Source: Rhizodiscina lignyota
Lineage: Eukaryota; Ascomycota; Dothideomycetes; Aulographales; Rhizodiscinaceae
Reading direction: 5' to 3'
Assembly: GCA_010015805.1 (NCBI GenBank)
Contig: ML978142.1
Coordinates: 124,001 to 188,000 of the forward strand
Length of the DNA: 64,000 nucleotides
Part shown: positions 25,327 through 26,019 of the stretch, in pieces
How positions within the stretch are numbered: the first letter of the stretch is position 1
Layout: each line of letters starts with the position of its first letter
Notes under the pieces: generated by a model
The model's input: the letters and a program-made list of their open reading frames with translations, nothing else
Database searches by the model: none
What the model was told of the DNA's origin: nothing
Translations under genes and position numbers: made by a program

Positions 25327-26019
25327 ATGCATCCGGATTCATCCCTATCCGGCAACGACGCACACGTCTTAAACGCTCTGTTCGACCCTGAATCGTCACT
25401 TTCATCTGGACCATCCATCGACGCTTCCCAGAACTCTCTGCCTCACGTTGATGAATCCGAACTATCTATACTTCAGACAACTGAAGCGCGGATAGTGAAT
25501 TCCCTGACGCCATCAAACTCGAGCCGAACGAATGTAGCGGCGGCAATCGAACAGCTAGGCAAGCTCATTGACGAGCATCCGCAATACGCACCGGCATATA
25601 TCAATCGAGCTCAAGCGAACCGCCTTCAGCTTGGTGATGGGGTATACACTGCCAAAATCTCTCCAGCCGTCGCATCGATTCTGGCCGATCTGTCCACTGC
25701 CATTAGCTTGATTACACCATCCTCTCCTGCCGAATCTGTGTCCCAACTACAAGCGAAGCTCCTTGCCTCTGCCCATACGCACCGCGCTTATATTCTCTAC
25801 AAGATATCAAAGTCTGGAGATCTCTCGAGTCTCCCAGAACCTATGCAGCATGGAGGTGCGGGGGCAGTGGAGGAGATGGCAAGCCGAGACTTCTTCTTGG
25901 GCGGACGATACGGGAATACGGTTGCTCAGCAGATGTCTGTTCGGACGAATCCTTATGCCAAAATGTGTGGGGCCATTGTGAAGGAAGCATTAAGGAAAGA
26001 GATGGATTCAACGGCGTGA
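25327..26019 (+). CDS. TTC36-like tetratricopeptide protein, candidate HmgX
   Basis: Single exon, 230 residues. A Ser-rich head of about 65 residues is followed by three TPR-like helices pairs: AAIEQLGKLIDEHPQYAPAY, then INRAQANRLQLGDG with a 15-residue insert, then SILADLSTAISLI. The end, FFLGGRYGNTVAQQ followed by TNPYAKMCGAIVKEAL, matches the hallmark of animal TTC36 (long helix, then NPYA.LC). TTC36 in mouse is reported to stabilise 4-hydroxyphenylpyruvate dioxygenase. HmgX of Aspergillus fumigatus, an accessory protein of the same step, is encoded in the tyrosine cluster. The position between fahA and the cluster regulator fits HmgX, but I could not compare sequences. TTC36 kinship is the stronger claim. 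Confidence 0.8.
   Translation: MHPDSSLSGNDAHVLNALFDPESSLSSGPSIDASQNSLPHVDESELSILQTTEARIVNSLTPSNSSRTNVAAAIEQLGKLIDEHPQYAPAYINRAQANRLQLGDGVYTAKISPAVASILADLSTAISLITPSSPAESVSQLQAKLLASAHTHRAYILYKISKSGDLSSLPEPMQHGGAGAVEEMASRDFFLGGRYGNTVAQQMSVRTNPYAKMCGAIVKEALRKEMDSTA

Follow-up and report, generated by a model that had tools for sequence, protein, structure and literature searches.

HmgX of a fungal tyrosine-catabolism cluster: kinship with animal TTC36 and a putative conserved partnership with hydroxyphenylpyruvate dioxygenase

The fungal pyomelanin and the mammalian tyrosinaemia literatures each feature a poorly understood protein that partners with the same enzyme, hydroxyphenylpyruvate dioxygenase (HPPD; HPD in mammals, where its deficiency leads to tyrosinaemia), namely HmgX and TTC36, respectively. 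A small gene in the window, by which we mean the whole 64,000-nt stretch of Rhizodiscina lignyota contig ML978142.1 analyzed here, raises the question of whether these partners belong to one family. An earlier note on this DNA had argued that, if the gene encoded both HmgX and a TTC36 orthologue, one chaperone-like partner of HPPD would have been kept from fungi to animals, and by sequence both halves of that "if" hold. The two helpers, studied separately so far, seem to represent a single ancient partner retained in both kingdoms, and linking them provides HmgX with a fold and a likely mechanism.

The hmgX gene and its neighborhood

The gene, hmgX, lies at positions 25327..26019 of the forward strand and was recognized from its open reading frame, its named homologues, and a TTC36 profile match. 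It consists of a single intronless open frame (25300-26019), with an ATG at 25327 and 230 codons followed by a stop, i.e., a product of 230 amino acids. This open frame is a genuine gene: 570 database proteins match its product at E ≤ 1 (among 1346 candidates), and query coverage reaches 93–100% among the 120 matches listed, which include the window's own protein. A search of the genome with the same protein, in which only the best candidates were scored, returned one match.

On its upstream side, hmgX is divergent from fahA (fumarylacetoacetase; 23518..24863, reverse strand), which carries PF09298 and PF01557 and an intron placed approximately at 24400-24450. The fahA start codon at 24863 and the hmgX ATG are separated by an intergenic stretch of 463 nt (24864-25326), exactly as the earlier note had it, and its figure of 2.5 kb to hppD is likewise borne out, with the hppD start codon at 22861 situated 2.47 kb from the hmgX start. 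hppD itself (21588..22861, reverse strand) comprises two exons (22861-22510 and 22453-21588) around a 56-nt intron and encodes 405 amino acids, for which the genome search also returned one match. A siroheme synthase (Met8-type) gene with PF14823, PF13241, and PF14824 adjoins hppD (20765-21451, forward strand). Downstream of hmgX, we identified candidates for hmgR, a Zn(II)2Cys6 regulator (28119..30567, forward strand; read in two pieces, of which the first matches PF00172 at E 1.1e-5 and the second has no Pfam match), and for maiA, a maleylacetoacetate isomerase of glutathione S-transferase fold (30985..31689, forward strand; GST_N and GST_C matches). Between hmgX and the regulator, the open reading frames alone suggest a SAM-dependent (LaeA-type) methyltransferase-like gene (26326-27400, reverse strand), two pieces of which gave no match in a Pfam search. 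Homogentisate dioxygenase loci (PF04209) were found on two contigs, at C20:177866-178434 and C1:1154103-1154561 (both reverse strand), and hmgA is thus located outside the tyrosine cluster in this genome.

Both named homologues and gene neighborhood indicate that the window gene is almost certainly HmgX. Two proteins named "protein hmgX", P0029 from Aspergillus lucknowensis and P0038 from A. mulundensis, share 49% and 52% identity with the window protein over 97% of the query, and the gene is linked to hppD and fahA on one side and to the regulator and maiA candidates on the other, in line with the reported clustering of hmgX with tyrosine pathway enzymes in fungi (PMC3203155, PMC3914699). The possibility that HmgX would prove to be an unrelated family with its own gene elsewhere in this genome, raised in the earlier note as a way in which its proposal could fail, did not materialize, as the window gene is itself HmgX. 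For P0038, NCBI gives the name "protein hmgX" whereas the UniRef name is "Tetratricopeptide repeat protein 36", so that the link between HmgX and TTC36 is already present in a database name. A literature search linking HmgX with TTC36 or tetratricopeptide, which covered papers outside subscription, found no earlier statement of this link, and the main text of the 2019 TTC36 paper mentions neither HmgX nor fungi.

Kinship of HmgX with animal TTC36

According to Keller et al. (2011), the 771-bp transcript of A. fumigatus hmgX has no introns, its product shows no conserved domains, and homologues were found in neither human, Caenorhabditis elegans, nor Dictyostelium (PMC3203155). Searches of Pfam, NCBIfam, and PDB sequences with the single window protein similarly gave no match, and its TPR is not seen by Pfam. 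Family membership emerges on direct comparison with TTC36. To that end, two sets of animal TTC36 proteins were gathered, one with a human TTC36 query that was checked by its matches (of 3616 candidates, 537 reached E ≤ 1 and 120 were listed), and one with a hand-made bait (427 of 3292 candidates, 120 listed), which added, among other groups, echinoderms, a brachiopod, molluscs, frogs, and fish. When fungal and animal sets were compared by BLASTP within a 240-sequence database, the top pair reached E 5.6e-17, the window protein matched animal TTC36 P0171 at E 2.9e-16 over residues 10-224, and 13,283 of 14,400 fungal–animal pairs fell below E 1e-3 (1,117 did not). A profile comparison with animal TTC36, which the earlier note had proposed as a check, went beyond generic TPR likeness: the profile of 35 fungal HmgX proteins (of 120 listed) aligned by hhalign to that of 20 amniote TTC36 proteins (of 120 listed) with probability 99.3% and E 1.8e-20 over 185 columns, from the NDxxVL motif to NPYAxxC. 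The same fungal profile matched a generic TPR, represented by the single sequence of HOP TPR1, over only 35 columns with probability 3.0 and E 0.015.

The TPR core is in itself no proof of kinship, since a TTC36-led profile also matches generic HOP TPR1 (probability 95.8, 72 columns). An HMM was built from 47 animal TTC36 sequences aligned without fungi, one of which (P0301) carries no species name, and was divided into N-terminal, TPR, and C-terminal parts, with 4,920 shuffled or reversed sequences as nulls. With the full model, no null exceeded 9.4 bits, whereas all 120 listed fungal proteins scored at least 42.1 bits and the window protein 63.8. Lying outside the TPR core, the C-terminal part placed 120/120 of them above all nulls (window protein, 23.7 bits; top null, 11.4), and the N-terminal part 111/120 (window protein, 11.7 bits; top null, 7.4); with nine fungal rows included in the alignment step, these counts became 120/120 and 114/120, respectively. 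Among 1,059 open segments, some overlapping, of 42 loci in the fungus's own genome, hmgX ranked first at 63.6 bits in the full model, ahead of 28.9 bits for the next, and also led with each terminal part, whereas another TPR gene outscored it with the TPR part (34.0 vs 28.3 bits). Searches of this fungal genome with animal TTC36 queries, the one direction in which best matches were sought, likewise returned the window gene on top, at E 2.5e-5 for P0171 (next gene, 0.03) and, by a small margin, at E 0.00275 against 0.0115 for Lingula TTC36 (P0257).

Taken together, these comparisons exclude chance as the source of the TTC36 likeness at sequence level. The other failure foreseen for the proposal, a likeness due entirely to generic TPR features, is ruled out by the behavior of the HMM parts and by the comparison with the single HOP TPR1 sequence. 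HmgX is thus very probably the fungal orthologue of animal TTC36, and the published view of HmgX as a protein with neither a domain nor a human homologue (PMC3203155) is contradicted by the profile and HMM matches. In a scan of genome contigs for prokaryotic relatives with two peptide patterns, none of the 23 pattern matches was confirmed, which is weak evidence of absence.

The conserved segments can be read directly from the window protein, in which the N-terminal motif, the TPR core, and the C-terminal NPYAxxC segment of TTC36 are all present. The N-terminal motif NDxxVLxALFDP (residues 10-21; 25354..25389, forward strand), identified by alignment, is common to animal TTC36. Within a TPR helix, the AYINRAQANR block (residues 90-99; 25594..25623, forward strand) includes N93, R94, A95, and R99, which are invariant across 89 sequences, as are the N, P, Y, and C of NPYAKMC (residues 208-214; 25948..25968, forward strand) at the start of the C-terminal helix. 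The earlier note had described this end of the protein as a long helix followed by NPYAKMC; the heptapeptide is there, but the structural model places it at the opening of the last long helix (209-229), not after such a helix. Overall, 28 positions are conserved across the two groups, with one common residue present in at least 85% of the 67 fungal and also of the 22 animal sequences compared, and in our judgement these include no evident catalytic or metal-binding set.

AlphaFold2 models of window HmgX (89 sequences, pLDDT 91.6, pTM 0.85) and of Lingula TTC36 (56 sequences, pLDDT 84.8, pTM 0.71) are both predicted to contain nine main helices in identical order, in which an N-terminal helix precedes a TPR-like solenoid and NPYA marks the start of the last helix. 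In structure searches, the best matches listed for both models were TPR or other helical-repeat chains. The gene, its family membership, this common predicted architecture, and the linkage to hppD and fahA are established here.

A putative chaperone of HPPD and its rivals

The need for HmgX has been established in A. fumigatus, where hmgX is tyrosine-induced together with its cluster, and where its deletion reportedly leaves the other cluster transcripts unaffected and leads to accumulation of pHPP; HGA was not found in an hmgX/hmgA double deletion (PMC3203155). Binding and stabilization are in turn established for the mammalian proteins: in mammalian cells, TTC36 binds HPD, with the VOC2 domain being critical, extends HPD half-life while leaving HPD mRNA unchanged, and reduces ubiquitylation of the enzyme (PMC6753076). 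As HmgX is very probably the TTC36 orthologue, these reports concern one family, and the simplest reading is that this family acts post-transcriptionally on one enzyme in both kingdoms. We infer that fungal HmgX binds HppD and acts on its stability, and that both roles derive from one ancestral role; a partnership with HPPD is likely conserved between fungi and animals. The fungal literature consulted yielded neither an HmgX–HppD interaction nor a measurement of HppD protein in strains lacking hmgX. A co-localization of HmgX with HppD, mentioned in the earlier note, was not found either, Keller et al. giving, in the text available, only a cytoplasmic HmgX-eGFP (PMC3203155). In Penicillium marneffei, deletion of hmgX is reported not to mimic that of hpdA in macrophages (PMC4374905).

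In the mechanism that we propose, HmgX would be a small, probably non-catalytic TPR protein, in which a TPR-like solenoid is flanked by an N-terminal helix and by a C-terminal helix capped by NPYAxxC. It would bind HPPD after HPPD synthesis and preserve the enzyme in a stable, usable form in the eukaryotic cytosol, by either protecting or maturing it, such that tyrosine breakdown would halt at hydroxyphenylpyruvate when HmgX is lost. The partner is not required for HPPD catalysis as such, because rat HPD made in Escherichia coli was reported as soluble and the cultures turned brown with pigment (PMC7856465). A literature search on fungal HPPD made in E. coli found nothing on topic. Going by the title of their 1998 paper, Keon and Hargreaves are said to have described the heterologous expression of a fungal HPPD.

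How such protection could work in mammals has been proposed in detail, with TTC36 blocking the phosphorylation of HPD by STK33 at T382, within a TxxE motif, and the recruitment of PELI1 (PMC6753076). HmgX might similarly shield a C-terminal HppD phosphosite from a kinase, and hence the enzyme from ubiquitylation, but window HppD ends in RGNLI, with its own stop codon as direct evidence that it has neither the T382 tail nor the TxxE motif therein. RGNL is likewise the end of the best PDB match, 8jbw, and of chains 8xtv/9lia, whereas the human HPD chain runs to 393, a comparison to be read knowing that the ends of crystallized constructs can be trimmed. Since window HppD stops where the human tail begins, T382 shielding cannot be a mechanism shared by both; it is ruled out for this fungus, and we give phosphosite shielding by HmgX almost no credence. 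The protection of HPD from degradation by TTC36, cited in the earlier note, depends in its published form on a phosphosite missing from window HppD. No match to the Pellino E3 ligase family (PF04710) was found in this genome, nor, likewise, in the control genomes.

Exon 1 of hppD (22510-22861, reverse strand) encodes a 13-residue insertion, opposite 13 gap positions in the human HPD chain, which has been described as ascomycete-specific. The insertion is missing in the human chain and in 8xtv/9lia, and is present in 8jbw with two more residues. Keller's idea that it marks organisms with an HmgX partner does not extend to a general requirement, because animals have TTC36 while human HPD lacks the insertion.

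TPR solenoids are typical scaffolds, and HmgX could be a TTC36 orthologue that joins HppD with the aminotransferase, HmgA, and FahA instead of stabilizing HppD. The clustering of hmgX with pathway enzymes noted above would fit such a role. Loss of channeling alone, however, would be expected to have a milder effect than the lack of detectable HGA in extracts of the double deletion (PMC3203155), TTC36 alters HPD half-life in mammalian cells (PMC6753076), and hmgA lies outside the cluster in this genome, all of which make a scaffold quite improbable. HmgX/TTC36 could also be mainly an Hsp70 co-chaperone with HPPD as one client among several, which we consider unlikely, although it draws on several observations. 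The top Foldseek match of both predicted models is the middle domain of the Hsc70-interacting protein (Hip), but this likeness does not look specific, since Hip is absent from the 50 VIA-align rows listed for either model and many TPR domains tie there. Of the three Lys/Asn/Asn positions of the HOP TPR1 EEVD carboxylate clamp that the alignment covers clearly, two differ in Lingula TTC36 (Lys8 to Glu, Asn12 to Val, Asn43 retained). TTC36, also known as HBP21, has been described as an HSP70 binder (PMC12318628), and c-Myc has been claimed as a further client (PMC12022016), which suggests that animal TTC36 also serves clients other than HPD. For the fungal protein, induction by tyrosine and clustering with a single pathway (PMC3203155) instead point to one main client.

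With T382 shielding excluded as a common mechanism and catalysis needing no partner, a dedicated chaperone is favored, and we consider it probable that the window gene encodes HmgX, the TTC36 orthologue, acting as a dedicated HPPD chaperone in the eukaryotic cytosol. We lean slightly toward the further view that the dedicated chaperone of HPPD predates the divergence of fungi and animals, that HPPD upkeep was the ancestral job of TTC36/HmgX, and that control through STK33, T382, and PELI1 came later, on a C-terminal tail missing here. If this ancestral-chaperone reading is true, animal TTC36 could partly substitute for HmgX in a fungus. With HmgX and TTC36 joined, fungal genetics offers a quick test bed for the action of TTC36 on HPD.

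Comparison with known systems

The closest known system is A. fumigatus HmgX (AFUA_2G04210), which resembles the window gene in being intronless, of similar length, and located in a tyrosine cluster with hppD, fahA, maiA, and a Zn2Cys6 regulator (PMC3203155). The arrangement differs in that hmgX is divergent from fahA in the window and from hppD in A. fumigatus (PMC3203155). Unlike the A. fumigatus cluster, that of the window has its hmgA elsewhere in the genome, and the six-gene A. fumigatus cluster, as described, is without the methyltransferase-like gene (PMC3203155).

Animal TTC36 shares with the window protein the N-terminal NDxxVLxAxFxP helix, the NRAQxxR TPR helix, and the C-terminal NPYAxxC helix, at an overall identity of 23–31%. 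Fungal HmgX differs in four internal stretches that are missing in animal TTC36 (residues 60-64, 102-112, 132-141, and 157-175), one of which holds a short predicted helix (171-174) that is extra relative to the model of Lingula TTC36. The strength of the effect also differs, as HmgX loss abolishes HGA in A. fumigatus while mice lacking Ttc36 have reduced HPD. Control of mammalian HPD by TTC36, STK33, and PELI1 involves the same partner families, HPPD and TTC36, but acts on a tail that window HppD does not carry, so this fungus does not share the phosphosite mechanism put forward for the mammalian enzyme. Finally, carboxylate-clamp co-chaperones of the HOP/STI1 type have the TPR fold in common with this family, and the TTC36 profile aligns to HOP TPR1, whereas the HmgX profile has no significant match to that single sequence; the clamp itself is not preserved in Lingula TTC36, and the fungal profile is unreliably aligned at these positions.
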